A stretch of 64,000 nt of DNA from Bifidobacterium breve. Its GTDB lineage: Bacteria; Actinomycetota; Acidimicrobiia; Acidimicrobiales; Acidimicrobilacustridaceae. Location of the stretch: NCBI GenBank assembly GCA_945878725.1, contig CAMCTY010000007.1, positions 1 to 64,000 on the forward strand, written 5' to 3'. The notes under the pieces are model-generated. The model was not told where the DNA came from and searched no databases. It saw only the letters and a list, made by a program, of their open reading frames with translations. The position numbers and the translations under genes are program-made. Positions 646 to 28,921 of the stretch are shown here, piece by piece (position 1 is the first letter of the stretch; each line of letters starts with the position of its first letter).

Positions 646-1155
646 TCAGTCGTAGTAACCGGAGTGGATGTACACGCAGGGCACACCTTCGGCGTGGAAC
701 ATCTCCCAGTTCCGTCGATCGTCCTCGAAGGCGAGGGTGAGATCAAATCCATAACCGCGGAACTCGCGCACGACGCGTTGTTTGAACAGACGTGATGAAC
801 CGTGATCATCCCATCCGCGCATGATCAACGCGTCCCAACGCAACTTGTAACGATCCAACCATCCGAGCGTCTGCGGACGGACGCGCAATGGTCGTGCCGT
901 GAGAAGAAGGATCGTCAGTTCACTGTCGAGACAATCGAGGAGTCGCGCCACTTCAGCGATCGGATCATCCTCACCGCATGCAGCGAAGAATGCTTCCCAA
1001 TCACGATAAGGCCAGTCGAGATAATGCTGGCGACGCGACGCATCGGAGAGCACGCCGTCCATGTCGAAGACCACGGCGCGGCCCGGGGCGACGGGACCAT
1101 CGCGCCAATGCCAATTCTCCGGTTGTTCGTCAGGTGAATCCGGCGTGAAGGTCAT
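646..1155 (-). CDS. HAD-superfamily phosphatase, polynucleotide kinase 3'-phosphatase-like
   Basis: This 169-residue protein carries the HAD motif I as VFDMDGVLSD near residue 30 and a motif II-like LLLTARP near residue 85, with AFEDDRRNWEMF near residue 142 as the acidic motif. The layout resembles the phosphatase domain of T4 polynucleotide kinase and related small HAD enzymes that dephosphorylate nucleic acid ends or nucleotides; the substrate cannot be told from sequence. Its ATG overlaps the acs stop codon (ATGA), so it is probably translated together with acs as the last gene of the long respiratory run. It ends 21 bp from the convergent yajQ. Confidence 0.8.
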   Translation of the reverse strand: MTFTPDSPDEQPENWHWRDGPVAPGRAVVFDMDGVLSDASRRQHYLDWPYRDWEAFFAACGEDDPIAEVARLLDCLDSELTILLLTARPLRVRPQTLGWLDRYKLRWDALIMRGWDDHGSSRLFKQRVVREFRGYGFDLTLAFEDDRRNWEMFHAEGVPCVYIHSGYYD

Positions 1156-3125
1156 GCGCCACTTCCCGGACCGTGCGCGGCACTTTCCTTAATTGCATCG
1201 ACGACGCTGGGATCGGCAAGCGTCGTCGTGTCTCCAAGATCGCGACCTTCCGCAACATCGCGGAGAAGGCGACGCATGATCTTTCCGCTTCGAGTCTTTG
1301 GAAGATCAGGAACGATGATCACACGCTTGGGACGAGCGGTCGGGCCGATCTTGTGGGCGACGTGCTGACGAAGTTCCTCGACGAGATCGTCACTGGCAGT
1401 CACCGAACTACGCAGGATCACATATCCGACAATTGCTTGACCGGTGAGATCATCAGTTGCTCCGACCACCGCAGCTTCGGCCACGGAACGATGATCGACC
1501 AATGCGCTTTCAACCTCTGTCGTTGAAATGCGATGACCGGAAACGTTCATCACGTCGTCGACGCGACCGAGAAGCCAGAGGTACCCGTCTTCGTCGATCT
1601 TGGCGCCGTCGCCTGCGAAATAGCGGCCCGGATATTGGCTCCAATACGTCTCGCGATAGCGATCGGGATCTCCCCAGATGCCGCGGAGCATCGCCGGCCA
1701 CGGACGGGTCAGTGTGAGATAGCCACCGCCGTGTTCGATTCGGTTGCCTTCTTCGTCAACCACTTCGACGCCGATTCCCGGGAGCGCAAACGTTGCCGAT
1801 CCGGGTTTGGTGACCGTGACACCCGGCAGGGGCGTGATCATCTGGCCGCCAGTTTCGGTCTGCCACCACGTGTCAACAATCGGGCATCGACTCCCGCCAA
1901 TGTGCTCGTGGTACCACATCCATGCTTCGGGATTAATGGACTCGCCAACAGTGCCGAGAAGGCGCAATGACGAAAGGTCGTGCGCGGCAGGCTCGGTGTC
2001 GCCCCATTTCATGAACATGCGAATCGCAGTCGGTGCGGTATACAGCTGAGTCACGCCGTAACGCTCAACGATGTCCCACATGCGGTCTTTAGCCGGCGTG
2101 TCGGGAGTGCCTTCATACAGGACCGACGTCGACCCATTGGCCAGCGGCCCGTAGACGACGTAGCTGTGGCCCGTGACCCAGCCAATGTCGGCTGAGCACC
2201 AGTAGATGTCCGTCTCTGGTTTCAGATCGAACACGTACTTATACGAGAACGCGACCTGAGTGAGATACCCGCCTGTCGTGTGCATGATGCCCTTGGGCTT
2301 CGCCGTGGTGCCAGAGGTGTACAGAAGAAAGAGCAGATCCTCTGAGCTCATCGCCTCCGGGACAGAGACGTCTGACGCCGACAACATGAGCTCGTGATAC
2401 CAGTGATCACGACCATCAACCATCACGACATCGGATCCGGTGCGCCGGACGACAACTACGCCGGTCACCGACGGACAATTGACAACTGCGACGTCCACGT
2501 TCACTTTGAGAGGAGCAGCCGCGCCTTTTCGGTAGCCACCGTCAGCGGTGACGATCACCTTGCACTCGCCGTCCTGGACACGGTCGATGATTGAGTCCGG
2601 GGAGAATCCACCGAAGATCACCGAATGAGCTGCACCGATGCGCGTGCAAGCCAACATCGCCACGGGAAGCTCAGGGATCATCGGCATGTAGATCGCCACT
2701 CGGTCGCCGCGTTCGACGCCGAGGCCCTTCAGCACGTTCGCGAACTTCGAGACTTCTGTCAGCAGATCCGAATAGGTGATTGTTCGGGTGTCGCCGGGTT
2801 CCCCTTCCCAGTGAAACGCGACCCTGTCGCCGATTCCGGCGTCGACATGACGATCGAGACAATTCGCCGAGACATTTAGTTCACCACCAACAAACCATTT
2901 CGCGTCCGGTAGTTCCCATTCGAGAGTCGTGTCGAAATCCTTCGACCACGTCAGCAGTTCGCGGGCCTGCCGCGCCCAGAAAGCCTCGTAATCTGCATCA
3001 GCCTCACGGTAGAGGGAATCATCCGACACGAGAGCTTGTGCAACGAATTCCGGTGACGGTGCAAAGGTCCGCTCCTCGAGGAAATAGTCCTCGATCGTTG
3101 CGTCGGTATTTGAGTTTTCGGTCAC
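1152..3125 (-). CDS. acs: Acetyl-CoA synthetase (AMP-forming)
   Basis: A 657-residue ANL-family enzyme of normal length, making acetyl-CoA from acetate, ATP and CoA through acetyl-AMP. Visible are the P-loop-like core LLYTSGTTAKPKG (around 265), DTWWQTETGG (around 418) and the C-terminal lysine motif PKTRSGKIMRR, whose lysine is acetylated in known enzymes. The first in-frame codon is TTG at 3131; I prefer the GTG at 3125 because a G-rich ribosome-binding site (AGGGGG) sits about 6 nt before it. It follows the methyltransferase gene by 33 bp and overlaps the HAD gene. Its location at the tail of a complex I cluster suggests co-expression with respiration on acetate (inference). Confidence 0.96.
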   Translation of the reverse strand: MTENSNTDATIEDYFLEERTFAPSPEFVAQALVSDDSLYREADADYEAFWARQARELLTWSKDFDTTLEWELPDAKWFVGGELNVSANCLDRHVDAGIGDRVAFHWEGEPGDTRTITYSDLLTEVSKFANVLKGLGVERGDRVAIYMPMIPELPVAMLACTRIGAAHSVIFGGFSPDSIIDRVQDGECKVIVTADGGYRKGAAAPLKVNVDVAVVNCPSVTGVVVVRRTGSDVVMVDGRDHWYHELMLSASDVSVPEAMSSEDLLFLLYTSGTTAKPKGIMHTTGGYLTQVAFSYKYVFDLKPETDIYWCSADIGWVTGHSYVVYGPLANGSTSVLYEGTPDTPAKDRMWDIVERYGVTQLYTAPTAIRMFMKWGDTEPAAHDLSSLRLLGTVGESINPEAWMWYHEHIGGSRCPIVDTWWQTETGGQMITPLPGVTVTKPGSATFALPGIGVEVVDEEGNRIEHGGGYLTLTRPWPAMLRGIWGDPDRYRETYWSQYPGRYFAGDGAKIDEDGYLWLLGRVDDVMNVSGHRISTTEVESALVDHRSVAEAAVVGATDDLTGQAIVGYVILRSSVTASDDLVEELRQHVAHKIGPTARPKRVIIVPDLPKTRSGKIMRRLLRDVAEGRDLGDTTTLADPSVVDAIKESAAHGPGSGA

Positions 3126-3158
3126 GATCAACCCCCTGAACAGATCTAGTGACGGAGC

Positions 3159-4319
3159 CTATCGGCCGGTTTCGTTCGCTTCGTCCGGCTTCCCGGCAAC
3201 GACCCATTGCAGAACGGTGAAGCCACCCAGTCCCCCGCCCTCGAGAAGTGCTTCTGCTTCGCGGATACGACTGCGGCCCCGGATTTCGCTCAATCCGGGA
3301 GCATGTGAGTTCGCCTCCCAGATCCGCCGACCTTCGGCTACCAATTCGTCGATGCCGAATCGCGTGAGAAAGTGACTCTGGGATTCCACGACGTCCGCCG
3401 GTGCGTTCATCTGGATCTGGTCAAGAGCAACATCCACGGTGATGTCCTGCGATCCAGGTGAATCAAGTGGATGAGAGCCGCGCTCATGTCCTTGGAACGT
3501 ACGCATCCAGCCGAAGTCAGGTCGTTGCGCCAGTTGTGCTGTCGTCGCCGCGTAGTCGATGACCACGAGACGACCGGTTCCGATACGAGAACGCATGTCG
3601 GTGATCCAATCAATCGCCTGCGCCTGAAGTGGAAACCAGACGCCGGTGCCACCGGAATCGACTCTCGCAGCGAGTTCGCGAGTCGGCGCGTCCTCAGACT
3701 GGTCAAGGGCACGCACCACGAATTCGCAGACGCCGTCGGCATCGCTTGCGACTTCGAGGGCATCGAAGAGGCCAATGGTGTCTCCTCCCGAATGTTCACG
3801 AACGATGTCGAATGCGATGTTGTCCAGAAGTTCATTGGCGAGAGCGATTCCATTGAAGGATGAGGGCGGCTCCGGCGCCGAGACGAAGACAGGGCCGTCA
3901 CCCATAAGGCTGCGGCGAGTAAGCGCAAGTAGATCCTCGCCCGATCGCTCCCCCACCCAGCCGGGAAGATGCTCTTCATGTCGAAGACGTTGGCTTGCGG
4001 TTCGTTCAACAAGGACGTGAAGTAGCACGCCCGCGCACTCGGGATCGGCAAAGCGGATGGAGCGGGCAAGGGTTCCGGGTCCGGCACCGATCTCGACGAG
4101 AACGAACGGGTCTGGATTACCGAGTTCGTGCCACCATTCGTCAAGCGCCCGAGAGATGACCGCGCCGAACAGAGGACCGACTTCGGGGCTCGTCAGGAAA
4201 TCGCCGCGTCCGCCGGCTCGACCACCGGTTGCATAGAAACCGGTGATGGGATCGTAGAGAGCCCGATCGACAAACTCCGAGAATGGAATGGACCCACCAG
4301 CATCACCCGCCGGTACCAC
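3159..4319 (-). CDS. MidA/NDUFAF7-family SAM-dependent methyltransferase, complex I assembly factor
   Basis: A 386-residue class I methyltransferase of the MidA/NDUFAF7 family. It starts with the family's typical region IPFSEFVDRALYDP (residues 10-24) and FYATGG..GDFLTSPEV, then the SAM-binding EIGAGPGTLARS near residue 76 and ANELLDNIAFD near 170. In humans NDUFAF7 dimethylates Arg85 of NDUFS2, the NuoD homologue, and is required for complex I assembly. Here the gene follows nuoN of the 11-subunit complex I by only 7 bp, and that cluster's NuoD keeps the matching arginine (residue 69) whereas the other NuoD has Thr. The start is GTG at 4319. The family assignment is strong; the target is inferred from context. 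Confidence 0.88.
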   Translation of the reverse strand: MVPAGDAGGSIPFSEFVDRALYDPITGFYATGGRAGGRGDFLTSPEVGPLFGAVISRALDEWWHELGNPDPFVLVEIGAGPGTLARSIRFADPECAGVLLHVLVERTASQRLRHEEHLPGWVGERSGEDLLALTRRSLMGDGPVFVSAPEPPSSFNGIALANELLDNIAFDIVREHSGGDTIGLFDALEVASDADGVCEFVVRALDQSEDAPTRELAARVDSGGTGVWFPLQAQAIDWITDMRSRIGTGRLVVIDYAATTAQLAQRPDFGWMRTFQGHERGSHPLDSPGSQDITVDVALDQIQMNAPADVVESQSHFLTRFGIDELVAEGRRIWEANSHAPGLSEIRGRSRIREAEALLEGGGLGGFTVLQWVVAGKPDEANETGR

Positions 4320-4326
4320 CTTGATC

Positions 4327-5838
4327 TCAGCGAGCGAGGGAGAAGAGCGTGATCGGATCGGTGAAATGTGTCAGTAGACCCGGGAAGACGCCGACGACGA
4401 CTGTTATCCCGACAGTGAGGACCACCGCCGCCTTCAACGCGACCGGAACGCGGATCGGCGCGACGTCGCCATCAGGCGCATCGTCCATCCACATGACCCG
4501 GATGAGACGTCCGTAATAACCGAACGCAATGACCGAGTTGATACCGACGATCGTCGCAAGGATGTAGCCACCTGAGGTCCCGGCTGCAGTGAGCGCCCGG
4601 AAAATCTCAAGTTTGGCAAACCAACCGCCCGCCGGAGGAATGCCGGCAAGGGCGAAGAGGAAAACCGTCATGGCGACAGTGAGCGCCGGCGCGTACTGGA
4701 ACAGCCCGGCGAATGAATTCACCGATGCCGAGCGAGTCTTGCGGGCGACGGCGATCACGACCGCGAACGCTCCGAGGTTCATCGCCGCGTAGATGAGCAG
4801 ATACAGAACAACCGAGCGCAGTGCTTCTCCGCCAACCGCGAGGCTGGTGCCAGCAACAGCAAGCGGGGCGAGGATGTAACCGGCCTGGGCAATACCCGAG
4901 TAGGCCAGCATCCGCACGACGTTGGTTTGCCGGAGGGCGACAAGGTTGCCGAACGTCATTGTGACGGCCGCAAGAACCCAGATCAGCGGACCGTAGACAT
5001 CGTCGCGACCGTAGAACCCGATGAACAGGATGTTCATAAGTGCAACGAAACCCGCCGCCTTCGATGCCACGGCAAGGAACGACGTCACCGGGGTGGGTGC
5101 GCCTTCATAGACATCCGGTGCCCAGGTGTGGAAAGGAACCGCGGAGACCTTGAAGCCGAAGCCGATGATGACGAACACGATGCCGAGCGTGACAATCGGC
5201 TGCGATGAGATCGCTTCGCCGAGTTTTGGTCCGATTTCAACGAGGAGGGTCGAGCCGGTGATTCCGAAGATCAGCGACATGCCGTAGAGCAGAATCGCCG
5301 AGGCGAAGACGCCCATCAGGTAGTACTTCAGCCCTGCTTCGTTGCTTTTCGCATCACGCTTTCGCCAGGCCGCCAGCATGTACGCCGGAATCGAGATCAA
5401 TTCGAGTGCCACGAAAATACTGATGAGATCGCGGGCCGACGCCATAACCATCATTCCGAGGACTGACGCCAGGATGAGTTGGTAGTACTCGCCTTCGTAG
5501 TAATCACCCTCGGCGATGTAATTCGTCGAAAGCAGGATTACGACGTACGCAGAGAGCAAGAACAGTGCCTTCAGTACAAGCGCGTAATCGTCGACCACAT
5601 ATGCGCCGCCGAAAAGGATCCGTTCAGTTCCGTTGTACGCAAGCGAAACGACGGGAATCAGTGCCGCGAGCAGGCCCACGCCCGCGATCGACGATGTTGC
5701 CCAGCGCGAATTCTCGCCGGTGAACGCGTCGACGAGAACAAGCACGACAAGCGTTGCCGCAACGATGATCTCGGGCGCGAGCGCGTGATAGTCGATGCTG
5801 GGCGCTGTCCACGCGAACGTCGCGAGCTGGGCGAACAA
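4327..5838 (-). CDS. nuoN: NADH-quinone oxidoreductase subunit N, 11-subunit complex
   Basis: A hydrophobic antiporter-like subunit of about 503 residues and some 14 membrane helices, one of the proton-pumping subunits of complex I. It carries the family core FKVSAVPFHTWAPDVYEG and the following PTPVTSFLAVASK. An ATG at 5892 would give 521 residues but lies inside nuoM; the TTG at 5838 has a GGAGG ribosome-binding site 8 nt upstream and gives the usual nuoN beginning, so I prefer it. It is the last Nuo gene of the second cluster, just ahead of the MidA-type methyltransferase. Confidence 0.94.
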   Translation of the reverse strand: MFAQLATFAWTAPSIDYHALAPEIIVAATLVVLVLVDAFTGENSRWATSSIAGVGLLAALIPVVSLAYNGTERILFGGAYVVDDYALVLKALFLLSAYVVILLSTNYIAEGDYYEGEYYQLILASVLGMMVMASARDLISIFVALELISIPAYMLAAWRKRDAKSNEAGLKYYLMGVFASAILLYGMSLIFGITGSTLLVEIGPKLGEAISSQPIVTLGIVFVIIGFGFKVSAVPFHTWAPDVYEGAPTPVTSFLAVASKAAGFVALMNILFIGFYGRDDVYGPLIWVLAAVTMTFGNLVALRQTNVVRMLAYSGIAQAGYILAPLAVAGTSLAVGGEALRSVVLYLLIYAAMNLGAFAVVIAVARKTRSASVNSFAGLFQYAPALTVAMTVFLFALAGIPPAGGWFAKLEIFRALTAAGTSGGYILATIVGINSVIAFGYYGRLIRVMWMDDAPDGDVAPIRVPVALKAAVVLTVGITVVVGVFPGLLTHFTDPITLFSLAR

Positions 5839-5842
5839 GAGA

Positions 5843-7402
5843 TCAGCCTCCGTGTCCGGGAATGGCCGAAAGCACGTTGGCGACAGCACCATCCGTGACC
5901 CGGAAGATCAGGTTCGGGAAGACACCGAGCACCAAGATGAGCACCAGCATTGGGGTCCAAGCGACCCATTCGGTGAAGCTCACGTCGTGGATGTGCGGAT
6001 CGTCCTCGAACTCCGCCTTCGGGACACCGAATGCGACCCGCTGGTAGAGCCAGAGAAGGTATGCCGCCGCGAGCACGGTACCGATAGCTGCGATCACCAT
6101 GAGCACACGGAAGAACGCAACACTCAGATCGCCACCCGGGTTGTAGGCGGAAAGAATCGCGGGGAACTCGCCCCAGAAACCGGCAAGGCCGGGCAAACCG
6201 AGCGACGCCATGATGGAGAAGCCGAGGATCCATCCCATGTGCGGCATCTGCTTGAGCATGCCGCCAAGACGGGCGATGTCCAGCGTGTGGAAACGGTCCT
6301 TGGTCGACCCGGCGATGAAGAAGAGCATGCCGGTGATGAGGCCGTGAGCAACCATGCCGAACACCGCAGCATTGATGCCGAAATCAGTGAGGGTCGCAAT
6401 GCCGAGCATGACGAAACCCATGTGCGAGACCGAGGAGAAAGCGATGAGACGCTTCATGTCGGTCTGGGCAAGACAGCAGAGCGCTCCGTAGATGATTCCG
6501 ACGACCGCCAGCACGCCGATGAACGGCGCCCAGGTCTGGGCCGCTTCCGGGAGGATCGGGATCGCGATACGGATGAAGCCATAGGTGCCGAGCTTCAGGA
6601 GGACGGCGGCAAGAATGACCGAGCCGACCGTCGGAGCCTGGGTGTGGGCATCTGGCAACCATGTGTGGAACGGGAACATCGGGACCTTGATACCGAAGCC
6701 CATGAACATGCCGCCGAAGATCCAAAGAGCGGCGCCGGCAGAGATGCCGGTAGCCAACTCGGGAAGCAGTCGCATGTCGAACGTGTGCATCATCGTGCCG
6801 TTGACATCAATCTGATCGGAGAGGAAATAGAGCGTCATGAAACTGACTATCATCAACGCCGAGCCGAACAGTGTGTAGAGGAAGAACTTCAGCGATGCGT
6901 ACTGACGCTTCTCTCCGCCCCAGACGCCGATCATGAAGTACATCGGGAGGAGTACGACTTCAAAGAACACGAAGAACAGGATGAGGTCCTGTGCAACGAA
7001 CGATCCCATCATGCCTGTCTGCAGGATGAGGATGAGGATGAGGAACGCCTTGGGATTACGGGGTTCCGGGAAGTGATTCCACGAGTAGATGATGCACAAC
7101 GGAACCACGAGGACCGTGAGGGCGATGAGTGGCAGCGAGATGCCATCCATGCCGACGATGTAGCGGCTGTTGATGATCGGGATCCACGACTTGTCCACGA
7201 CGAACTGCATGGTGCCGGTCGCGTCGTAGTCGAAATTGGCAAATAACAAGATGCCAATAAACGCGACGACGAGACTCGTGCCAAGTGCAACCGTTTTGTG
7301 GAACTGTTCACGTGCTTTTGGCACGACGAACATGACGAGGGCGCCCATGAGGGGCAGGAATACGGCGAGGCTCAAGCCCCAGCTGTTCAGAAAGTCTTTC
7401 AT
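5843..7402 (-). CDS. nuoM: NADH-quinone oxidoreductase subunit M, 11-subunit complex
   Basis: A 519-residue antiporter-like membrane subunit of complex I, normal length. Diagnostic segments are the second-helix region PLMGALVMFVVP, the channel segment IKVPMFPFHTWLPDAHTQAP and SVSHMGFVMLG. It is expected to form a proton path in the membrane arm between NuoL and NuoN. It sits between nuoL (18 bp upstream) and nuoN, which begins at or just beyond its stop codon. It is clearly different in sequence from the NuoM at 16512-18158, so the two clusters are old copies rather than a recent duplication. Confidence 0.96.
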   Translation of the reverse strand: MKDFLNSWGLSLAVFLPLMGALVMFVVPKAREQFHKTVALGTSLVVAFIGILLFANFDYDATGTMQFVVDKSWIPIINSRYIVGMDGISLPLIALTVLVVPLCIIYSWNHFPEPRNPKAFLILILILQTGMMGSFVAQDLILFFVFFEVVLLPMYFMIGVWGGEKRQYASLKFFLYTLFGSALMIVSFMTLYFLSDQIDVNGTMMHTFDMRLLPELATGISAGAALWIFGGMFMGFGIKVPMFPFHTWLPDAHTQAPTVGSVILAAVLLKLGTYGFIRIAIPILPEAAQTWAPFIGVLAVVGIIYGALCCLAQTDMKRLIAFSSVSHMGFVMLGIATLTDFGINAAVFGMVAHGLITGMLFFIAGSTKDRFHTLDIARLGGMLKQMPHMGWILGFSIMASLGLPGLAGFWGEFPAILSAYNPGGDLSVAFFRVLMVIAAIGTVLAAAYLLWLYQRVAFGVPKAEFEDDPHIHDVSFTEWVAWTPMLVLILVLGVFPNLIFRVTDGAVANVLSAIPGHGG

Positions 7403-7420: not shown

Positions 7421-9688
7421 CTAGATGACGAACACGAAGACGCCGGCAAGAACGACTGCACCGGCGAAGAGGATTGAGGCGTACTGCTGAACCTTGCCTG
7501 TCTGGATCCGTCGAAGGAGCTGACCAGCGCCTTCGGAAACGGATCCAGATCCGTTCACTGCACCATCGACGACAAGTTGATCGATGTCTTTGTAGACAAA
7601 ACCGGCGGAAACCCTGGCGACAGTGCCGACACCGTTTACCACCCCGTCGAGCACGTTCTGGTTAACCCAGTTCGATGCACGAGCCAGCGGGCCCTTCGTC
7701 GCTCCTGCGATGCCATCGGTGTAGATGGTGTCGAGGTAGTACTTGTTCGCGAGGAACCCGTAGCCGGCGCGGGCCAAGCCGCTCCTGCTGGTCAGACCGT
7801 GAGGCCCGCGGTTCTTCGCGTAGTACTGGTAGACGAGGAAGAAGCCAGTAGCGGCGAGAATCGTCGAGACGATTGCCAGCCACGGCGTGAACTCGGCGTG
7901 CTGCAGCGGCGGGAAGGCAAACGTCGGTTCGACATAATGTTCGAACCTCGTTGTAAAGCCACCGGGCAGTTTCAGGCCGAAGAAGTTGGTCGGTAGGTTC
8001 GTGAACCCGAGGAACACGGCGCAAGCCGCGAGGATGACGAGCGGGACAGTAATCACCTTGGGTGATTCGTGGGGCTTTGCATGGCCCCGGTAATTGCCCC
8101 AGAAGGTCATCCAGTAAGCACGCCCCATGTAGGCAGCCGTCATGAATGCGGTGATGAGACCGAACACCAGCATCAGCGTGTAGGCCTTTTCTTGACCGTT
8201 CGCGGCGCCGGCGAGGATCTCGTCCTTGGACCAGAAACCTGCGAGCGGGAAGATGCCAGCGAGCGCCAGCGTGGCGGCGAGGAAGGTTGCGTGCGTGATC
8301 GGCATCTTCTTGCGAAGGCCGCCCATCTCCCTCATGTCGAAGGTGTGATGGCAGGCGTGACTCACCGAACCGGCACCAAGGAACAGGCAGGCCTTGAAGA
8401 ACGCGTGCGTAAAGAGATGGAAGACGCCGGCCGTCCATGCGCCAACGCCGAGGGCCATGACCATGTAACCGAGTTGGGAGATCGTTGAGTAGGCGAGCAC
8501 CTTCTTCAGGTCGGTCTGCACGAAGGCAAGGAGACCGCCGATGATGGTGGTGAAGCCACCGATGAACGCCACGTAGTGCAACGAACTCGAACCAATACCA
8601 AGGCCGGCAAAGAAGACGCCGTAGAGACGGGCGATGAGGTACACGCCAGCGACAACCATCGTCGCGGCGTGGATCAACGCCGAGACCGGAGTCGGGCCGG
8701 CCATGGCATCCGGCAACCAGGTATGCAACGGGAACTGGCCTGATTTCGAAGTGACACCACCGAAGAGACACAACCCACCCACAAGAAGCAGGGTCGTGTT
8801 TGCTGCACCGGAGAGTGCGTACTCATTGATGTGAAGCACGTTGAAGCTGTTTGCGCCTGCGGCGAAGAACGTGATCGCTACACCGATGATCAGACCCATG
8901 TCGCCGACACGGTTGGTGAGGAATGCCTTCAGCGCGGCGTCAGAGTTCTTCTTCTCTTCCCACCAGTGGCCAATGAGACCAAACGAACAGACGCCAACTA
9001 ACTCCCAGCCCACCAACATCTGCAAGGTGTTGGAGCTCATGACGTAGAAGAGCATCGACGCCGTAAAGAGCGAAAGGAAGGCGTAGTAGTGGGTGTAGCG
9101 GATGTCGCCGCGCAGGTACTCGGTTGAGTAGATGTGCACGAGCAGCGAGATGATGCAGACCGTAATGAGCATCATGGCCGTGAGACCATCGACAAGAGTT
9201 CCCGCTTCGAACGAGATACCGCCGATTTGGAACCATGTGACTGTCCGAACAACCGGAGGAACTGCTCCGTGCTCTTCCGATCCGTGCTCTTCTGACGCTG
9301 CCGCTCCTGCCGCACTCTCCGTTTCGGCCGAAGCGATCTCCAAGGCGATGGGCGTGATCTTCGGTGTTCCGGATGCGGAAGCGGCGGTCTCACCCGAGTC
9401 ATCGGTCGCGGCGTTGGCTTCGGCCTCGACGGTTTGCGCGTCCTGCGGGGTCAGGCCGTTGGCCTTGACGATTTCCTGCGCGAGCTTTTCGCCGGTCGGC
9501 GGATTGTTTACGCGGTTGATCCACTGCCCGGCGACAACCACCGAGAACAACAGACACAACGAGACGGCCGCGATTCCGATACCGGCGGTGGCTCGGGTAC
9601 CGGCACGCTTGCCGAAGAAAAGAATGATGAGGAACGACAACGCCATGATGGCGGGGACGATCCAGACCTTGTCGAGGAGTTCAGGCAT
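7421..9688 (-). CDS. nuoL: NADH-quinone oxidoreductase subunit L with long insertion, 11-subunit complex
   Basis: A 755-residue NuoL, about 100-140 residues longer than usual. The core has SGQFPLHTWLPDAMAGPTPV and STISQLGYMVMA, and the C-terminal lateral-helix region is present. The extra length comes from an insertion at about residues 58-148, between the second and third predicted helices, rich in Ala, Glu, Thr and Ser and without hydrophobic segments; by topology it should lie outside the membrane. GTG (9691) and ATG (9688) starts are adjacent; I give the ATG. It follows nuoK by 11 bp. NuoL is the distal proton-pumping subunit of complex I. Confidence 0.95.
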   Translation of the reverse strand: MPELLDKVWIVPAIMALSFLIILFFGKRAGTRATAGIGIAAVSLCLLFSVVVAGQWINRVNNPPTGEKLAQEIVKANGLTPQDAQTVEAEANAATDDSGETAASASGTPKITPIALEIASAETESAAGAAASEEHGSEEHGAVPPVVRTVTWFQIGGISFEAGTLVDGLTAMMLITVCIISLLVHIYSTEYLRGDIRYTHYYAFLSLFTASMLFYVMSSNTLQMLVGWELVGVCSFGLIGHWWEEKKNSDAALKAFLTNRVGDMGLIIGVAITFFAAGANSFNVLHINEYALSGAANTTLLLVGGLCLFGGVTSKSGQFPLHTWLPDAMAGPTPVSALIHAATMVVAGVYLIARLYGVFFAGLGIGSSSLHYVAFIGGFTTIIGGLLAFVQTDLKKVLAYSTISQLGYMVMALGVGAWTAGVFHLFTHAFFKACLFLGAGSVSHACHHTFDMREMGGLRKKMPITHATFLAATLALAGIFPLAGFWSKDEILAGAANGQEKAYTLMLVFGLITAFMTAAYMGRAYWMTFWGNYRGHAKPHESPKVITVPLVILAACAVFLGFTNLPTNFFGLKLPGGFTTRFEHYVEPTFAFPPLQHAEFTPWLAIVSTILAATGFFLVYQYYAKNRGPHGLTSRSGLARAGYGFLANKYYLDTIYTDGIAGATKGPLARASNWVNQNVLDGVVNGVGTVARVSAGFVYKDIDQLVVDGAVNGSGSVSEGAGQLLRRIQTGKVQQYASILFAGAVVLAGVFVFVI

Positions 9689-9699
9689 CACGGCGCGAA

Positions 9700-10014
9700 T
9701 CAGCCCTTCAGCAGATCGACATCATTGATATCGATGCTTTGGCGGTTGCGGTAGATCAACAACACGATCGCCAAACCAACGCCAACCTCTGCGGCTGCGA
9801 TGGCGATGACGAACAAGGCGAAGACCTGCCCGGACATGTTGGACACATCGTTGGCGTGCCACATGGCACCGAACGCAACGAGGTTGATATTGCATGCATT
9901 GAGAATCAGTTCAATCGACATCAGCACAAGCACCGCGTTCTTGCGGGCGAGTACTCCATAGATGCCGATGCAAAAAAGGACAGCGCCGAGGAAGAGGAAT
10001 TGGTTGACAAGCAT
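9700..10014 (-). CDS. nuoK: NADH-quinone oxidoreductase subunit K, 11-subunit complex
   Basis: A 104-residue protein with three predicted membrane helices. The second helix contains the conserved acidic segment [18 protein letters not shown] and the third contains [18 protein letters not shown] with its conserved glutamate, both features of NuoK/MnhC-type subunits in the proton path of complex I. The ATG overlaps the nuoJ stop by one base, which implies tight translational coupling. The length matches the family. Confidence 0.96.
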
Positions 10015-10523
10015 CAGTCGCGCCTAGCCAGAACGATGGCGCCAATGAGCGCAGCCAACAGGAGTACGGAGATCACTTCGAACGGCAGTAGATACGTCGA
10101 GAAGATCGAATCGCTGACCTCGGCGGTGCGCTGGACAAGCAGATCGCCGATTTCCTGATCGCCGAAGCCATCCCAGAGCGAGTAACCGAGAAGCCCGAGC
10201 ATGGCTACACCGATGACGCCGGCACCAACCTTCGGGATCGTTCCGTTGTCGAGATCCTCGTCGGTTCCGGTCTTGGCTCGGGTGAGCATGATCCCGAAGA
10301 GGAACAGCACGATGATCGCACCGAGGTACACAAGAACCTGGGTGACAGCCACAAATTCGGCGGCAAGCAAGATGTACTGGGCGGCAACACCGGCAAGGAC
10401 AACCACGAGCCACAGGGCCGCGTGCATGAGGTTCTTGCACGTGACGACACGGATCGCGCCAAACACGATAAGTGCCGCGATCACATAGAACGCAATGTTC
10501 TGGGCAACGAGGAGAGCAAGCAT
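10014..10523 (-). CDS. nuoJ: NADH-quinone oxidoreductase subunit J, 11-subunit complex
   Basis: A 169-residue membrane protein with about five predicted helices and the family segment [21 protein letters not shown] near residues 54-74, the pi-bulge helix of NuoJ that couples quinone reduction to pumping. It is bounded by nuoI, sharing its stop/start region, and by nuoK. It is shorter than the NuoJ of the 14-gene cluster (217 residues), which carries a C-terminal tail. Confidence 0.95.
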
Positions 10524-11026
10524 CAGTCCCGGGGCACCTTCTTGACCTTGGCTTCCGATCCGGCTTCATAGGCCTCGAAGTCCGGGACCGTTTCCATCCA
10601 CTGTGCCAGACGGCTCTTGTCGTGAAGGAGATCCGCGATGCGCACTTCGGAGTACTCGTGTTCCGGGCTCCAGAAAAGTGCATCGAACGGGCACACTTCG
10701 ACGCAGATCCCGCAGTACATGCAGAGCGAGTAATCGATGTCGAACCGGTCAAGTTCGTTCTTCTGACGGGGCTTGCCGCCTTCGCGTCGCGGCGGAGCCA
10801 CGTACTTGTGGGCCTCGATGAAGATGCACCAGTCGGGACATTCCCGGGCGCAGAGCATGCACGAGGTGCAGTTCTCTTCCTTGAGCGAGATGACACCACG
10901 GGCGCGTGCCGTTGGCATCTCGCGCTCATGCGGGTACTGAATGGTCTGCGGCCCCGACTTGAGCGTCTTGACCATCTCGCCGAATGTGACACCGAGACCC
11001 TTGATGAGACCAGGAACCTGAGGCAT
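10523..11026 (-). CDS. nuoI: NADH-quinone oxidoreductase subunit I, 11-subunit complex
   Basis: A 167-residue iron-sulfur subunit with two CxxCxxCxxxCP motifs, CTSCMLCARECP (about 65) and CMYCGICVEVCP (about 112), which hold clusters N6a and N6b that carry electrons to N2 in NuoB. The ATG at 11026 is chosen over an upstream in-frame start because it overlaps the nuoH stop (TAATG). In this cluster no NuoE, NuoF or NuoG is encoded, so NuoI is the outermost electron-accepting subunit visible. The C-terminal part, after the second motif, is charged. Confidence 0.96.
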   Translation of the reverse strand: MPQVPGLIKGLGVTFGEMVKTLKSGPQTIQYPHEREMPTARARGVISLKEENCTSCMLCARECPDWCIFIEAHKYVAPPRREGGKPRQKNELDRFDIDYSLCMYCGICVEVCPFDALFWSPEHEYSEVRIADLLHDKSRLAQWMETVPDFEAYEAGSEAKVKKVPRD

Positions 11027-12063
11027 TAGAGCACCACCTTTAGGACGGCCGTGACCACGATGTTCAACAGCGCGAGCGGAATCAAGAACTTCCAAGCGAA
11101 ACTCTGAAGCTGATCCTCGCGGAGTCGCGGATAAGTAAAGCGCACCCAGAAGATGAGGAATGCAACAGCCATCACCTTGCCGAAAAGGACTGCGGGGCCG
11201 AGAACGTAATACCAGTCACTGTCGACGGGAAGCCACGGGACGGCCCAACCACCGAGGAACAACACCACTGCGATTCCGGCGAAGACGAAGGCCGTTGCGA
11301 ACTCGGCAAGGAAGAAGATCAGGAAACGGAAGCCCGTGTACTCCACCTGATAACCGCTGACGATTTCGGACTCGGCTACCGGCATGTCGAACGGTGGTTG
11401 CGTGAGTTCAGCCTGCACAGCGGCGATGAAAATGAAGAAACCGATGAACTGCGTCAGGATGAACGGGTTCCCGATCGCGGTAATTCCAAAGACTGCGCCG
11501 TCATTCTGGGAAAGCACGATGCCGTTGAGGCTCATCGTCCCGGCTTGGATGACAACACCAACGACGGCGAGAACCATCGGAAGCTCGTACGCAATCAACT
11601 GCCCGGCGGCGCGCAACGCCCCCATGAGCGAGTACTTGTTGTTGGAGGCCCAGCCGGCCATCAACACGCCGATAACCGAGAGCGATGAAACGGCCAAGAC
11701 GTAGAACACGCCCACATCGAGATCCTCGACAACGAGGTGCAGCGAGGAAGGAAGCGCCACGTAGAGCAGGAGCGTTGATGCGAGCACGACGAGCGGCGCG
11801 GCCTTGAACACCCAGAGATCGGCGCCGTTCGGAGAGATGTCCTCTTTCTGGAGAAACTTCACACCATCGGCGAGGAGCTGGAGGGTGCCTCGCGGGCCGG
11901 CTTCCTGCGGGCCGAGACGGCTCTGCATCCAACTCATGATCTTGAACAGGAAGACCACGCCAAGAATGAGCGCGGTTGTTGGAACCACGGCACCGATGAC
12001 GAGCACCTTGATGACTGTCGACAGCCAATAAGGCGGCGCGAACGCCGCAAGAAGAGGGGTCAT
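11026..12063 (-). CDS. nuoH: NADH-quinone oxidoreductase subunit H, 11-subunit complex
   Basis: A 345-residue membrane subunit with about eight helices that forms the quinone chamber with NuoB and NuoD. Family landmarks are the first loop MQSRLGPQEAGPRGTLQLL, LADGVKFLQKED, and the loop QPPFDMPVAESEIVSGYQVEY with its conserved acidic residues. The start codon overlaps the nuoD stop by 4 bp. Length is normal for NuoH, and shorter than the 403-residue NuoH of the other cluster. Confidence 0.96.
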   Translation of the reverse strand: MTPLLAAFAPPYWLSTVIKVLVIGAVVPTTALILGVVFLFKIMSWMQSRLGPQEAGPRGTLQLLADGVKFLQKEDISPNGADLWVFKAAPLVVLASTLLLYVALPSSLHLVVEDLDVGVFYVLAVSSLSVIGVLMAGWASNNKYSLMGALRAAGQLIAYELPMVLAVVGVVIQAGTMSLNGIVLSQNDGAVFGITAIGNPFILTQFIGFFIFIAAVQAELTQPPFDMPVAESEIVSGYQVEYTGFRFLIFFLAEFATAFVFAGIAVVLFLGGWAVPWLPVDSDWYYVLGPAVLFGKVMAVAFLIFWVRFTYPRLREDQLQSFAWKFLIPLALLNIVVTAVLKVVL

Positions 12064-13235
12064 CGGTCGATGTCACCCAGGATGAAGTAGAGGCTTCCGA
12101 GAATCGAGATGAGATCGGGCACATAGGCGCCACGCGCCACCCACGGAAGAACCGAGATGTTGTTAAACGATGCCGAGCGGATCTTGACCCGGAACGGAAC
12201 GAGGTCGCCCTTGGACACGATGTAATAACCCATCTCGCCAAGAGGATTCTCGGTGGCGACGTAGGCCTCACCTTCGGGAACCTTGATGATGCGCGGCACT
12301 TTGGCCATTACGGGACCGGCGGGGATCGTCGTCAGCAATTGCTTCACGATCTTCGCGGCCTCGCGGGTCTCCTGGAGACGGACCCACGTGCGGGCGAACG
12401 CGTCGCCATCGGGATGAGTCCAGACTTTCCAGTCGGCCTGGTCGTAGACAAGGCCAGGAGGACAACTGTCGCGACGCAGATCCCAGTCGACACCCGAAGC
12501 GCGCAGGTTGGCGCCGGAGAGGCCGTAGGACAACGCCACATCAGCAGGGATGACTCCGATACCGCGGGTACGAGACTGGAAGATCTCGTTGCCGACAAGG
12601 AGGTTTTCCATCTCGTCACAGAAGGCAAGGAGTTTGTCCATGGCCACCTGCGAATCGGAGATCCAGCCCTTCGGCAGATCGTCCTTGAGGCCGCCGATGC
12701 GGTCGAAGTTCGGATGGAAACGCCCGCCCGTCGCCGCTTCAATCTGATTGAGAACGAATTCACGGTCGCGGAATGCGTAGAAACCAGCGGTCATGCCGCC
12801 AAGCTGAAGCCCGAAGTCTCCGAGGAACAACGAGATGTTGGCCACGCGGGACATCTCGAAAAGGATCGTGCGGATCCACTGAGCGCGCGGCGGCGCTTCC
12901 ACTCCCATGAGTTTTTCGGCCGCAAGGATGAACGGGACCTCGTTGGCGAAACTGCCAAGCCAGTCGATCCGGTTGATCAGCGCATTGATCTGCGGATACG
13001 TGCGAACTTCAACGATCTTTTCGTAGCCACGGTGCATGTAGCCACAGATTGGTTCGGCCGAGATGACCTGTTCGCCGTCAAGCTTCGCAACGATGCGCAG
13101 CGTGCCGTGGGTCGCGGGATGCTGCGGACCCATGTTGAGGGTCATGCCCTCGGATTCGAAATCGATGTTGACTCGGTTGTCTGTCGCCTCGGCAACAAGC
13201 GAAGAAATGTCGTCACGATCACTTACTGCGGTCAT
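12060..13235 (-). CDS. nuoD: NADH-quinone oxidoreductase subunit D, 11-subunit complex, with altered quinone site
   Basis: A 391-residue 49-kDa-type subunit. NMGPQHPATHG (residues 34-44) has the conserved quinone-site histidine. In the partner motif, normally RMDY or RLDY, the sequence reads NRIDW: Trp92 stands where the essential quinone-binding Tyr is in Thermus Nqo4 (Tyr87) and human NDUFS2 (Tyr108). Arg69, in YMHRGYEK exactly 23 residues earlier, matches human Arg85, the site methylated by NDUFAF7; a MidA/NDUFAF7 gene ends this same cluster. The protein otherwise looks intact. It overlaps nuoC and nuoH by 4 bp each. Whether the complex still reduces quinone cannot be told from sequence. 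Confidence 0.95.
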   Translation of the reverse strand: MTAVSDRDDISSLVAEATDNRVNIDFESEGMTLNMGPQHPATHGTLRIVAKLDGEQVISAEPICGYMHRGYEKIVEVRTYPQINALINRIDWLGSFANEVPFILAAEKLMGVEAPPRAQWIRTILFEMSRVANISLFLGDFGLQLGGMTAGFYAFRDREFVLNQIEAATGGRFHPNFDRIGGLKDDLPKGWISDSQVAMDKLLAFCDEMENLLVGNEIFQSRTRGIGVIPADVALSYGLSGANLRASGVDWDLRRDSCPPGLVYDQADWKVWTHPDGDAFARTWVRLQETREAAKIVKQLLTTIPAGPVMAKVPRIIKVPEGEAYVATENPLGEMGYYIVSKGDLVPFRVKIRSASFNNISVLPWVARGAYVPDLISILGSLYFILGDIDR

Positions 13236-13933
13236 TCGCTCTCACCCTCTTCGTCATCAATTGCTCCACCGGGCATCGGTTCGACATCCACGATGCCGGG
13301 CCACGGGCGCACGCGCCGAGCCAGCAGAGGAAAGTCCTTGCGCATGGGGTGACCCTGAAAGTCGGTGGGTAGATACATGTTGATCATGTTGGGATGACCG
13401 GCGAACGAGATGCCGAACATCTCCATGACCTCGCGCTCATGCCAGTTCGACCCTGCGAAGACAGATGTCCACGTGGGAGCGGTGAGATCATCATCAGGCA
13501 CGTCGGTTTTGAAATGGATTCCCATGCCATCGGCGAGGGAATAGAGACGGGCGATGATCTGGAAACGAGTTTCGCCGCCGGCATAGCCGTGGGTCATCGG
13601 GCCGACCTCTTTGGCCGGAGTACCGGAAACGATGAGATCTTCCTGAGCGTCCATGTCGCGGCCGAACGGTGACGGCAACCAGTCGATGGCCGAGACGTAA
13701 TCGAAGAAGACATAGCCCATGGCTTTGGCAGTCTCGGCGGTCTCGCGCCAGACCGACCGGTCGACACGGATCCAGAGATCGTCACCGGCGCGGATGTGCG
13801 AACCGAGTACGCCCTCGCCGAGGCGAGCGGTGAATTCGGCGAGCAGAGCTTCGCGTCGTTCGTCGACGATCGGCGTTTCGGCCGCGGTCGCGGCTTCAGT
13901 TTCGGTGGTGTCAGCCGATGACAATCGGATCAC
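13232..13933 (-). CDS. nuoC: NADH-quinone oxidoreductase subunit C, 11-subunit complex
   Basis: A 233-residue peripheral-arm subunit equivalent to the 30-kDa protein. The signature is the C-terminal [19 protein letters not shown] followed by a PMRKDFPL segment, which contacts NuoD. I chose the GTG at 13933 because the longer reading frame would overlap nuoB by 86 bp; a TTG at 13924 is another possibility. The N-terminal 25-30 residues are Ala/Thr/Glu-rich. The nuoD start overlaps its stop codon. Confidence 0.92.
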
Positions 13934-14411
13934 CCTTCCAACGCTCAGCCATGTCTTCGTGGGCGATTCGCTCCTGAAGGAGGATGATGCCCTCAAGCAA
14001 GGCTTCCGGACGGGGCGGGCAGCCAGGTACGTAGACGTCGACCGGAATCAACTGATCCACGCCCTTCGTGACCGAGTAGCTGTCCCAGTACGGGCCGCCG
14101 CAGTTCGCACACGAGCCCATCGAGATCACGTACTTGGGATCAGGCATCTGCTCGTAGAGACGCACGACCGCCGGAGCGAGTTTGTCGGTCACGGTGCCGG
14201 CGATGACGACAAGGTCGGCCTGGCGGGGGCTGGCCGGGAACGGAATGACGCCCAAGCGCATGACGTCGTAACGCGGAGACGCGAACGCCGCTCCCATTTC
14301 GATAGCGCAGCACGCAAGGCCCCATTGGTAGGCCCAGATCGAGTACTTGCGGGAGATGTTGAGCAGCTTGGCCAGCGGCTTCGGAAGTTTTCCACTCTCG
14401 ACTAAGCCCAT
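13911..14411 (-). CDS. nuoB: NADH-quinone oxidoreductase subunit B, 11-subunit complex
   Basis: A 166-residue protein carrying all four ligands of cluster N2, the last iron-sulfur centre before quinone: the adjacent cysteines in GLACCAIEM, then [10 protein letters not shown], and [11 protein letters not shown]. The start ATG at 14411 overlaps the end of nuoA; a longer frame to 14522 would run deep into nuoA and is not preferred. The intact N2 site argues that this second complex is redox-active in spite of the NuoD change. Confidence 0.96.
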
Positions 14412-14776
14412 TGGAGCACCTTCTTTCGCCAGGCGTAGAGGAGGCCAAGTGCCAGAATCCCCACGAAAATGAGCATCTCCACAAGACCAAAAACCCCGTA
14501 GGACTCGAGTTGCGTGGCCCACGGGAAGATGAAGACCGCTTCGACATCGAACATCACGAAGAGAAGCGCATAGACGTAATAACGGATCTGGCTCTGCGAC
14601 CAGCCGCTACCAACAGCATCGACACCGGACTCGTACACGAGGTACTTCTGTTCCTGCGGACGCACCGGACGGAAGATCTTGCCGATGCCGAGGAGACCCG
14701 CGCCCAGGCCAACGCCGACTCCGGCGAAGATGGCAACGGTCAGGTACTGCCGTACGAAATCGGAGTACTCAGACAT
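14402..14776 (-). CDS. nuoA: NADH-quinone oxidoreductase subunit A, 11-subunit complex
   Basis: A 124-residue protein with three predicted helices and the NuoA signatures [12 protein letters not shown] and [22 protein letters not shown]; the long loop between helices one and two contacts the quinone channel. It is the first gene of the 11-subunit cluster and lies 71 bp downstream of the nuoN stop of the 14-subunit cluster. I see no convincing terminator in that gap, and no strong ribosome-binding site either, so read-through from the upstream cluster is plausible. Confidence 0.95.
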
Positions 14777-14847
14777 CGGTTGATGAGCCTAGTTTCGGGC
14801 CGTACACGGCATGAAATCCTTGGGGATGCGGGAGGGGCTGTCGGGAA

Positions 14848-16515
14848 CTATCGGTTGGAGACATTGGCGATCGGACGCTCGAACTGCACGAGTGCGGGTT
14901 GGGCATCACGTGCGGGTTTCACCAGCAGATCAGGCACGATGCCGTAGCCGATGGTCACCACGACACAGATCGTAAGAGCAATCCCCGCGGAAAGCGGGAT
15001 CCGGATTCGGGTCGACTGTGCGGGTTCCGGACCATCGTTGCCGTCATCGCCGCCCGACATGAACATGGCCACAATGACCCGCAGATACAGGAACGCCGAG
15101 ATGACTGCCGAAACCATCGCCACGATGGCCAGCGGCGTGCTGTGGGCGTTGACTGCTGCGGTGATCGCGTAGAACTTGGCGAAGAACCCGGCCGTGAACG
15201 GAATGCCGGCCTGCGCCAGAAGGAGGATCGTGAACGCGATCGCCAGTTGTGGATTCGAGCGCGAGAGACCCTTGTAATCCGACAACTGATGGTTGCCATC
15301 GCCGCGACCACCAACGAGAGTGGCGATTCCGAACGATCCGGCCACCATAAAGGTGTACACAGCCAGATAGAAAACGATCGCCGAGTTTCCTTGTTCGGAT
15401 CCGGCCTGAACTGCCATGAGGATGAATCCGGCGTGGCTGATCGACGAGTAAGCCAGCATCCTTTTGATGTTGCTCTGAACAATGGCAAGAGCCGCGCCCA
15501 CAACCATCGAAAGAATGGCCAAGGCGTAGATCATCGGCTTCCAGGTGGCGCCATAGTTCGAGAAGGTGAGAACGAAGATCCGCACGAGGCCGGCAAACGC
15601 AGCCGCCTTGACGCCAGCGGCCATCCAAGCAACCGCCGGAGTGGGGGCACCGTCGTAAACGTCCGGGCTCCACGCGTGGAACGGAACGGCCGAAACTTTG
15701 AAGGCGAGACCTACAAGAAGAAGACCGAGGCCAATGAGGAGCAATCCGTTCTGGACCGGAACTACCTGCGACATGAACATCTTGATCTCGACCAGATTCG
15801 TAGATCCGGTTGAGCCGTAAATCATGGCGATGCCGTATAAGAAGAAGGCGGACGAGAATGCTCCGAGGATGAAGTACTTCATCCCGGACTCTTGCGACTG
15901 CGAGCGACGCAGGTGCATGCCCGCCATCACATAGACCGCGATGGAAAGGGTTTCGAGTCCGATGAACAGAACGATCAGATCGTTCGACATGGCCATGATC
16001 ACGCCGCCGGCGGCGGAGATGAGCATCAGTACATAGAACTCTGGGCCTTCCATGTCTTCACGACGCAGATAAGCATTGGCCAGCAACGCAGCGAGGATCA
16101 CTCCTGCGCACAACGTGATGATCACGAAAATTCCGAAACCGTCGATGCCCACGGCACCGCCGACTGTCGAGAATGCGCCCGGCTGCGCGGGTGAGAGTTC
16201 CCACCCGAGCAACGAACTCCAGTTTTGAACGCGGGCCCAGAGGGGAACCGCGCTGATCGCAGCAGCAGCCGCGATCACGACCGTCACCGTCGAGAACAGA
16301 CCCCGCGGCGCCTTGCCGCGGAGGAACGAGGAGAACGTGAGTACGAGCAACCCGCCGACAAGCAATATCAGCATCGGGGCCAGCGCCCACCAGTCGACCG
16401 ACGGTCCGGCGAGACTGACTGTTCCTTCACGTGCCGATCCCGACGTCGAGGCTGCTGCGCCAAGAGCGTCTGTGAGCGGTTGGGTCTGGGCGAGAATTGA
16501 TCCGAGCGCGATCAC
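14848..16515 (-). CDS. nuoN: NADH-quinone oxidoreductase subunit N, 14-subunit complex
   Basis: A 555-residue antiporter-like subunit with about 14 helices. FKVSAVPFHAWSPDVYDGAP and YSSISHAGFILMA are the conserved channel segments. It starts at GTG 16515, overlapping the nuoM stop, and is the last gene of the 14-gene cluster. It is longer than the other NuoN (about 503 residues), with an extra N-terminal stretch of about 40 residues before the first family helix. Confidence 0.95.
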   Translation of the reverse strand: MIALGSILAQTQPLTDALGAAASTSGSAREGTVSLAGPSVDWWALAPMLILLVGGLLVLTFSSFLRGKAPRGLFSTVTVVIAAAAAISAVPLWARVQNWSSLLGWELSPAQPGAFSTVGGAVGIDGFGIFVIITLCAGVILAALLANAYLRREDMEGPEFYVLMLISAAGGVIMAMSNDLIVLFIGLETLSIAVYVMAGMHLRRSQSQESGMKYFILGAFSSAFFLYGIAMIYGSTGSTNLVEIKMFMSQVVPVQNGLLLIGLGLLLVGLAFKVSAVPFHAWSPDVYDGAPTPAVAWMAAGVKAAAFAGLVRIFVLTFSNYGATWKPMIYALAILSMVVGAALAIVQSNIKRMLAYSSISHAGFILMAVQAGSEQGNSAIVFYLAVYTFMVAGSFGIATLVGGRGDGNHQLSDYKGLSRSNPQLAIAFTILLLAQAGIPFTAGFFAKFYAITAAVNAHSTPLAIVAMVSAVISAFLYLRVIVAMFMSGGDDGNDGPEPAQSTRIRIPLSAGIALTICVVVTIGYGIVPDLLVKPARDAQPALVQFERPIANVSNR

Positions 16516-18158
16516 TTCTTGACCTCCGTACCTGCGTGGTCGCCATGCTCGGCGGATTCACGAGATTTTTCGATCAGCAGGAGGTCAAGACCGCTACCAG
16601 CCTGCGTGTCTGGCTCGTTGTATCGATCCACTTTTTCTTCCATACGACTCAGCACCCGGTTCACCGAAGGCTCGATCCTGTCGAGAACGGGCTTCGGGTA
16701 GACACCGAGAAACACGATGAGTGCGATGAGCGGAATCATCACGAGGCGCTCGGAAATGTTGAGATCCGGGAACGACGCGTTGGCCTCGTCGGGCTCGCCG
16801 TGGAACACCCGCTGATACGCCCAAAGCAAATAAAGCGCAGCGATGATCACGCCGGCGGTCGCCACTACAGCCCACCAGCGATGGGCCATGAAGGTTCCGA
16901 GAAGGATCATGAATTCGCCGACGAAACCGTTGAGACCAGGGAGGCCGATCGAGGACAACATCACCAAGGTGAAGAGGCCCGCAAAAACAGGAGCCGACTT
17001 GGCGATGCCCTTGAGGCTTGAGATCTCGTACGTGTGCCTGCGGGTGTAGAGGAAACCCAGAAGGATGAACAACGCTCCGGTTGAGATGCCGTGGTTCACC
17101 ATCTGCAGGATCGAACCCTCGACACCAAGCTTGTTCAGGGCGAACAGACCCATGATCGCAAAGCCCATGTGAGCCACCGATGAATAGGCGACCAGTCGCT
17201 TCAGGTTCTTCTGCATCGCGGCGACGATCCCGCCGTAGATGATGCCTATCGCACCCAACGTCAGCATCACGGGGGCGAACCACACCGTTGCTTCAGGAAA
17301 GAGTTCGATCCCGTAACGAAGGAAGCCGTAAGTGCCGAGCTTGAGAAGAATGCCGGCGAGGTCGATGGAGCCCGCCGTGGGGGCTTCGGTATGCGCGTCG
17401 GGGAGCCACGTATGGAACGGGAACGAGGGAACCTTCACGGCGAAGGCGATCGCCATGCCGAGGAACAACCAACGCGCCGTGTTCTGAGCGAGGCCATCGC
17501 TGGCGATGATCTTTACGAAGTCGAAACTGATTGTTCCACCGTCACCCGCCTTGGCAAGGACAGCAAGGCACACGATCGACACGAGCATGAAGGCCGAGCC
17601 GAGCATTGTGTAGAGGAAGAACTTCGTCGCGGCATAGACGCGGCGCCCGTGGCCCCACTTGCCGATCAGCATGTAGAGGGGGACCAACGTGATCTCGAAC
17701 ATCAGGAAGAAGAGGAACAGATCGAGGGCCAAGAATGCGCCCATGCAGCCGCCCATAAGGACTGTCAGCCAGGCGTAGTAACCCTTCGGATCGTTCTCCG
17801 GCTTTGCTGCGAAAAGCGCTATCGGAAAAAGGATGCCCGTCAGCACCACGAGGAACAACGAGATCCCGTCCACGCCGAGGAAGAACTTGATGTCGAGCGA
17901 CGACACCCACGTCTGCTGAACCACGAACTGGAAACCCGGATCGCCGGTCTTGAATTGGACGAGGAGTGCGATGCTCAGAAAACCGGTTGTGAGAGCGGTG
18001 ATGATCGCGATCTGACGGGCAACCTCGGGCCGCGACCGCGGGATGAGTCCGATGATGAGTGCGCCGATCATCGGCACAAAAACGAGTGCCGGAAGGATCG
18101 GGAAACTGCTCGAACCCGCTTCGGATGCGAAGAGGCTGGTGGAAAGAGAAGCGATCAT
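16512..18158 (-). CDS. nuoM: NADH-quinone oxidoreductase subunit M, 14-subunit complex
   Basis: A 548-residue membrane-arm subunit. VKVPSFPFHTWLPDAHTEAP and SSVAHMGFAIMG mark the NuoM channel region. Its last 40 residues are charged and hydrophilic, a tail not seen in the NuoM of the second cluster. The start ATG overlaps the nuoL stop by one base and its own stop overlaps nuoN, consistent with one polycistronic message. Confidence 0.96.
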   Translation of the reverse strand: MIASLSTSLFASEAGSSSFPILPALVFVPMIGALIIGLIPRSRPEVARQIAIITALTTGFLSIALLVQFKTGDPGFQFVVQQTWVSSLDIKFFLGVDGISLFLVVLTGILFPIALFAAKPENDPKGYYAWLTVLMGGCMGAFLALDLFLFFLMFEITLVPLYMLIGKWGHGRRVYAATKFFLYTMLGSAFMLVSIVCLAVLAKAGDGGTISFDFVKIIASDGLAQNTARWLFLGMAIAFAVKVPSFPFHTWLPDAHTEAPTAGSIDLAGILLKLGTYGFLRYGIELFPEATVWFAPVMLTLGAIGIIYGGIVAAMQKNLKRLVAYSSVAHMGFAIMGLFALNKLGVEGSILQMVNHGISTGALFILLGFLYTRRHTYEISSLKGIAKSAPVFAGLFTLVMLSSIGLPGLNGFVGEFMILLGTFMAHRWWAVVATAGVIIAALYLLWAYQRVFHGEPDEANASFPDLNISERLVMIPLIALIVFLGVYPKPVLDRIEPSVNRVLSRMEEKVDRYNEPDTQAGSGLDLLLIEKSRESAEHGDHAGTEVKK

Positions 18159-20110: not shown

Positions 20111-20115
20111 GTTCC

Positions 20116-20424
20116 TTACCCCCTCAACAATCGGAGGTCATCAGCGTTGGCGCCAGGACGACGACGGGACATCGCCACCACGAGTGCAAGACCAACGACG
20201 ACTTCGGCCGCAGCAACGACCATCACGAAGAAGACGATCACCTGTCCCGAGATGTCGTTGAGCATTTGGCCAAAGGTGACGAAGGTGAGATTGACGGCAT
20301 TGAGCATCAGTTCGACGCACATGATCATGACCAGTGGATTGCGGCGGATCAGGAGTCCGACCCCGCCGATTACAAAGAGAATCGCGGCAAGGCACAGATA
20401 GGCAAGGGGAAGATTGGTGGTCAT
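20116..20424 (-). CDS. nuoK: NADH-quinone oxidoreductase subunit K, 14-subunit complex
   Basis: A 102-residue three-helix subunit with the conserved acidic residue in IMCVELMLNAVNLTFVTF and a second in VAAAEVVVGLALVVAM. It overlaps the nuoJ stop by 4 bp. Length and motifs match NuoK. Its sequence is about as far from the other NuoK in this window as is usual between distinct complex I types (judged by eye). Confidence 0.96.
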   Translation of the reverse strand: MTTNLPLAYLCLAAILFVIGGVGLLIRRNPLVMIMCVELMLNAVNLTFVTFGQMLNDISGQVIVFFVMVVAAAEVVVGLALVVAMSRRRPGANADDLRLLRG

Positions 20425-21074: not shown

Positions 21075-21075
21075 A

Positions 21076-28914: not shown

Positions 28915-28921
28915 AGGACCC

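Follow-up and report, generated by a model that had tools for sequence, protein, structure and literature searches.

The window, by which we mean the whole stretch of 64,000 nucleotides that was analysed, carries two sets of complex I genes and one midA gene on the same strand (Table 1). The 11-subunit cluster is ordered nuoABCDHIJKLMN from 14776 to 4327; it is without nuoE, nuoF and nuoG, and the interval between nuoD and nuoH is too small to accommodate them. Its NuoL (7421-9691) has an Ala/Glu-rich insertion of ~80 residues near the N-terminus. Directly upstream lies a 14-subunit cluster that includes nuoEFG. On the other side, 7 bases separate the end of nuoN (4327) from the start of the midA ORF, and acs is the usual gene 3' of midA, both here and in most Acidimicrobiia loci.

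Table 1 Features at the midA locus and in the two complex I gene clusters
Feature	Position	Strand	Basis or remark
acs, acetate-CoA ligase	1152..3131	-	27 bp downstream of midA
midA, NDUFAF7-family SAM-dependent methyltransferase, 386 aa, GTG start	3159..4319	-	PF02636, 84 bits
nuoN, 11-subunit cluster	4327..5892	-	TIGR01770 above cut-off
nuoM, 11-subunit cluster	5843..7402	-	PF00361 and PF01059
nuoL, 11-subunit cluster	7421..9691	-	NF005141 above cut-off
nuoK, 11-subunit cluster	9700..10014	-	position and size; tblastn homologues at the same place in relatives
nuoJ, 11-subunit cluster	10014..10523	-	PF00499
nuoI, 11-subunit cluster	10523..11095	-	4Fe-4S families; true start may be further downstream
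nuoH, 11-subunit cluster	11026..12063	-	PF00146
nuoD, 11-subunit cluster, Arg type (CGYMHRGYEK)	12060..13235	-	NuoD families and sequence
Codon of Arg69, 11-subunit NuoD; proposed site of methylation, corresponding to bovine/human NDUFS2 Arg85	13029..13031	-	alignments to solved NuoD chains and pattern match
nuoC, 11-subunit cluster	13232..13996	-	NuoC families
nuoB, 11-subunit cluster	13911..14522	-	NuoB families
Codon of Thr in 11-subunit NuoB at Thermus Nqo6-Arg83 position	14193-14195	-	
nuoA, 11-subunit cluster	14402..14776	-	NuoA families
Gap between 14- and 11-subunit clusters, 71 bp	14777..14847	-	
nuoA to nuoN, 14-subunit cluster, transcribed in this order	14848..30533	-	position for K and M; NCBIfam for A, B, C, D, E, F, G, H, I, J, L, N
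Codon of Thr115, 14-subunit NuoD (IGYLHTGMER), acceptor arginine absent	28597..28599	-	sequence
Codon of Arg87, 14-subunit NuoB, at Thermus Nqo6-Arg83 position	29806..29808	-	

The midA product is an ordinary member of the known MidA/NDUFAF7 family (PF02636, COG1565). It scored 84.4 bits against PF02636 (cut-off 23.3), while the NCBIfam profile search gave no match for this protein. Its sequence matches among PDB chains were 4f3n, 1zkd and 5ztz, the last being Dictyostelium MidA. The AlphaFold model (pLDDT 87) matched 4f3n, 4g67, 5zu0, 1zkd and 5ztz with TM scores of ~0.7, compared with ~0.3 for the next group, and close structural matches were limited to MidA/COG1565 proteins. The protein retains the GxGxG that binds SAM as well as the NExxD, DY and GxxD residues that do not vary within the family, and residues E163, D166, D255, Y256 and D292 are invariant across 44 sequences.

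A sequence-only reading of this DNA had placed midA 7 bp after nuoN, which the ORF coordinates confirm, and had seen no second copy in the window; the latter extends to the whole genome (93% complete), in which the profile search found a single PF02636 match. Its further description of midA as lying in an operon with the 11-subunit complex only was overstated. The 14-subunit cluster adjoins it on that strand, a contiguity of which that reading made no use, so that midA could be co-transcribed with both clusters. A promoter/terminator scan gave no sigma-70-like site in 2900-16000 and thus does not bear on where the transcripts begin or end. Because the two clusters adjoin, position alone cannot identify the client of MidA, and we rejected linkage by itself as proof.

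The residue that such an enzyme would modify is more informative. Human NDUFAF7 symmetrically dimethylates Arg85 of NDUFS2 (PMC3829151). Among bacteria, the NuoD (Nqo4) arginine is dimethylated in Paracoccus denitrificans, the conserved NuoD arginine is present but unmodified in E. coli, and Thermus has Thr at the acceptor position (PMC3750175). Within the genome studied here, the 11-subunit NuoD reads HRG at this position, whereas the 14-subunit NuoD reads HTG. Thr is also found there in the NuoD chains of Thermus and of 8e9g, which we take to be a mycobacterial chain. As the 14-subunit NuoD has Thr at this position, the known acceptor is offered by the 11-subunit complex only.

The partner subunit NuoB differs as well. 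In Thermus, an arginine of the NuoB homologue fills the space taken by the NuoD arginine in Yarrowia (PMC8042128). This arginine switch near cluster N2 is set in opposite ways in the 11- and 14-subunit complexes of a single genome (NuoB at 13911-14522 and 29464-30066, respectively). Among 35 distinct pairs from the retrieved loci (including L036-L063, L137-L142 and L237-L242), NuoD-Arg went with NuoB-Thr in 14/14 and NuoD-Thr with NuoB-Arg in 21/21. The NuoD-Thr/NuoB-Arg state of the 14-subunit complex explains why MidA would be unneeded there. At the PSST Arg77 hydroxylation site, the 14-subunit NuoB has Arg and the 11-subunit NuoB has Pro.

We then surveyed 246 genomes of one phylum (Actinomycetota), calling MidA by PF02636 and typing NuoD by residue patterns (Arg type, HR followed by any residue; Thr type, HTG). 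NuoD family matches as a stand-in for the type of complex were too coarse, and a count restricted to HRG left families f17, f51 and f54 as exceptions, as they carry HRA (HRS in G180); the pattern was therefore widened. PF02636 occurred in 76/246 genomes, Arg-type NuoD in 138/246 and Thr-type NuoD in 117/246. MidA was present in 54 of the 78 genomes with both NuoD types and in 18 of the 60 with the Arg type only, but in just 2 of the 39 with the Thr type only and 2 of the 69 with neither pattern. Overall, 72/138 genomes with Arg-type NuoD had MidA versus 4/108 without it (Fisher p 2e-18, a value that ignores phylogeny and treats related genomes as independent). Counted per family, which corrects only roughly for kinship, the figures were 25/36 versus 1/27 (p 6e-8). 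MidA and Arg-type NuoD were also jointly absent from some members of families whose other members have both (G139 in f40; G022 and G073 in f17; G058 and G231 in f11).

The association is one-sided: an arginine in NuoD is necessary but not sufficient for the presence of MidA. The 66 genomes with Arg-type NuoD and no MidA include all of f19, f48 and f27 and nearly all of f21, which indicates that the arginine can function without MidA, as in E. coli. Loci of f19, f48 and others (L140, L141, L228-L237) have the same 11-subunit cluster with Arg-type NuoD and no MidA. A seeming MidA-bearing member of f21 (G141) was discarded, as its MidA contig (L136) resembles Acidimicrobiia and is probably contamination. 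Conversely, four genomes have MidA without Arg-type NuoD, two of them incomplete (G178, G242) and two truly of Thr type (G092, G208). Several PF02636 paralogues per genome were seen in f43 and f46 (L122, L123, L124, L125, L132, L133), G092 being among these genomes, and some of these family members may have other functions.

Gene position follows the same residue. In 39 genomes from 13 families, MidA and an Arg-type NuoD were no more than 25 kb apart; in one of these, whose clusters are contiguous, a Thr-type NuoD also fell inside 25 kb, and the survey gave no case of a Thr-type NuoD within 12 kb of MidA. On contigs that carried MidA together with both NuoDs, the Arg type was closer in 19/19 cases; when the two NuoDs were on separate contigs, the one accompanying MidA was of Arg type in 17 cases and of Thr type in 0. 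Close linkage was absent in about half of the MidA genomes. In Acidimicrobiia and relatives, the 11-type nuoN was directly upstream of midA on the same strand at 69/80 MidA loci, which speaks against a chance arrangement, and two others were contig ends. In another genome of the same order (G113), the NuoDs are 3.6 Mb apart and midA is on the side of the 11-subunit cluster.

A different layout occurs in f16, f17, f51, f54 and the Streptomyces-like families (a label for likeness, partly in gene layout). Here, midA adjoins an Arg-type nuoD, often tail to tail (L082-L099, L115-L119), mostly with no further nuo gene in the stretch retrieved, and in several cases the nuo clusters are at least 100 kb away. 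Outside Actinomycetota, the comparison covered Sinorhizobium and Neisseria records. In Sinorhizobium, midA is located between lgt and pgeF, with the Arg-type NuoD >1 Mb away; the Neisseria records have both MidA and Arg-type NuoD, unlinked.

We consider it probable (about 0.82) that MidA acts as a protein arginine methyltransferase on NuoD from the neighbouring 11-subunit cluster, placing a symmetric dimethyl mark on Arg69, and that the 14-subunit complex does not need it. By analogy with NDUFAF7, MidA would act early on NuoD, before or during its joining to NuoB around cluster N2, and would thereby contribute to assembly in bacteria as well. The 14-subunit complex would be independent of MidA in a Thermus-type arrangement, with Thr in NuoD and the arginine supplied by NuoB. 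The smaller complex is the likely target here because MidA occurs almost only where NuoD has the acceptor arginine. The sequence-only reading's proposal of the smaller complex as client is thus well supported by the residue test and by MidA tracking Arg-type NuoD in both presence and position, except that the determinant is the NuoD arginine and not the size of the complex, since the NuoD of P. denitrificans is dimethylated (PMC3750175) and Sinorhizobium has MidA and Arg-type NuoD unlinked. Arg-type NuoD is therefore the likely substrate and complex size a proxy. Far from being frequent in genomes without complex I and indifferent to gene neighbourhood, the finding that would have spoken against that proposal, MidA was accompanied by complex I genes in 76/76 genomes, with a strong positional bias.

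More tentatively, Actinomycetota might possess two complex I variants that carry the N2-side arginine on different subunits, with MidA as the dedicated modifier of the NuoD-arginine variant. Its gene would then stay beside that nuoD even apart from the other genes of the complex, and the mark may decide which NuoD joins which complex.

Co-occurrence with no functional tie could stem from common ancestry, or from the 11-subunit cluster, midA and acs having been transferred together as a cassette. The block is indeed conserved in Acidimicrobiia, and such a contig appears in an unrelated MAG, albeit probably as the contamination mentioned above (L136). However, in f16, f17, f28, f51, f54 and f57 the shared unit is nuoD and midA only, in varying orientations and in several cases with the remaining genes hundreds of kb off, which makes a mere cassette unlikely.

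We regard it as quite unlikely that MidA serves both complexes, for instance by aiding assembly in the manner of a chaperone, and that the place of its gene at the end of a long nuo transcription unit is meaningless. This would fit the window itself, where the contiguous clusters share one strand, are 71 bp apart and end in midA. Nevertheless, genomes with only a Thr-type NuoD almost never have MidA (2/39), midA is always closer to the Arg-type NuoD where the clusters are apart, and the 14-subunit NuoD is devoid of the acceptor residue.

An unrelated substrate (DNA or another protein), with accidental linkage or inherited hitch-hiking, is very unlikely: Wolbachia MidA in E. coli has been reported to methylate DNA, a result its authors call preliminary (PMC12455994), and the Sinorhizobium gene away from nuo, the f43/f46 paralogues and G092 and G208 point the same way, but the pairing with Arg-type NuoD recurs in 13 families in varied layouts (following nuoN, or either convergent with or upstream of a lone nuoD), and the two are absent together within families.

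The preferred reading, in which MidA modifies the NuoD arginine, bears on a family whose function in bacteria has so far mostly been inferred from eukaryotes. With one methyltransferase and two NuoDs, only one of which has the acceptor arginine, the genome provides a built-in control. What the dimethyl mark does beyond the arginine itself is a question left by previous work (PMC8042128), and the internal control makes this effect, apart from that of the arginine, directly testable. Streptomyces that can be cultured and have midA and a lone nuoD2 would offer a simple test bed, and the sequence rule HRxxE versus HTGxE predicts which complexes could be MidA clients.

Compared with human and Dictyostelium NDUFAF7 (MidA), the protein has family and fold in common, and the linked NuoD carries the HRGxE acceptor motif. 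The present case, known from sequence, differs in that the gene follows an 11-subunit cluster and the cell has two NuoDs, of which one has the arginine. Shahul Hameed et al. 2018 (Cell Rep 24:1996) reportedly proposed a proteobacterial origin of MidA, and the same job has been proposed for bacterial homologues. While a role for the family has thus already been proposed, the pairing with Arg-type NuoD and the internal Thr-type NuoD control are new. P. denitrificans likewise has a bacterial complex I with the NuoD arginine (PMC3750175), but there a single complex, of 14 subunits, serves as the client, and Sinorhizobium midA is unlinked.

For Streptomyces, the available part of one report (PMC3765725) describes a second complex I gene set with nuoD2 apart from the cluster; a midA adjoining nuoD2 is not mentioned in that part. 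As far as described there, this second complex is also reduced, without EFG, and the separate NuoD of the Streptomyces-like genomes surveyed here is of Arg type and beside midA. In the window, by contrast, the 11-subunit cluster includes its nuoD, and midA comes after nuoN. Finally, the two NuoD/NuoB states are the same as those of the arginine switch between Thermus and Yarrowia (PMC8042128); here, both states occur in one genome, and MidA accompanies only one of them.
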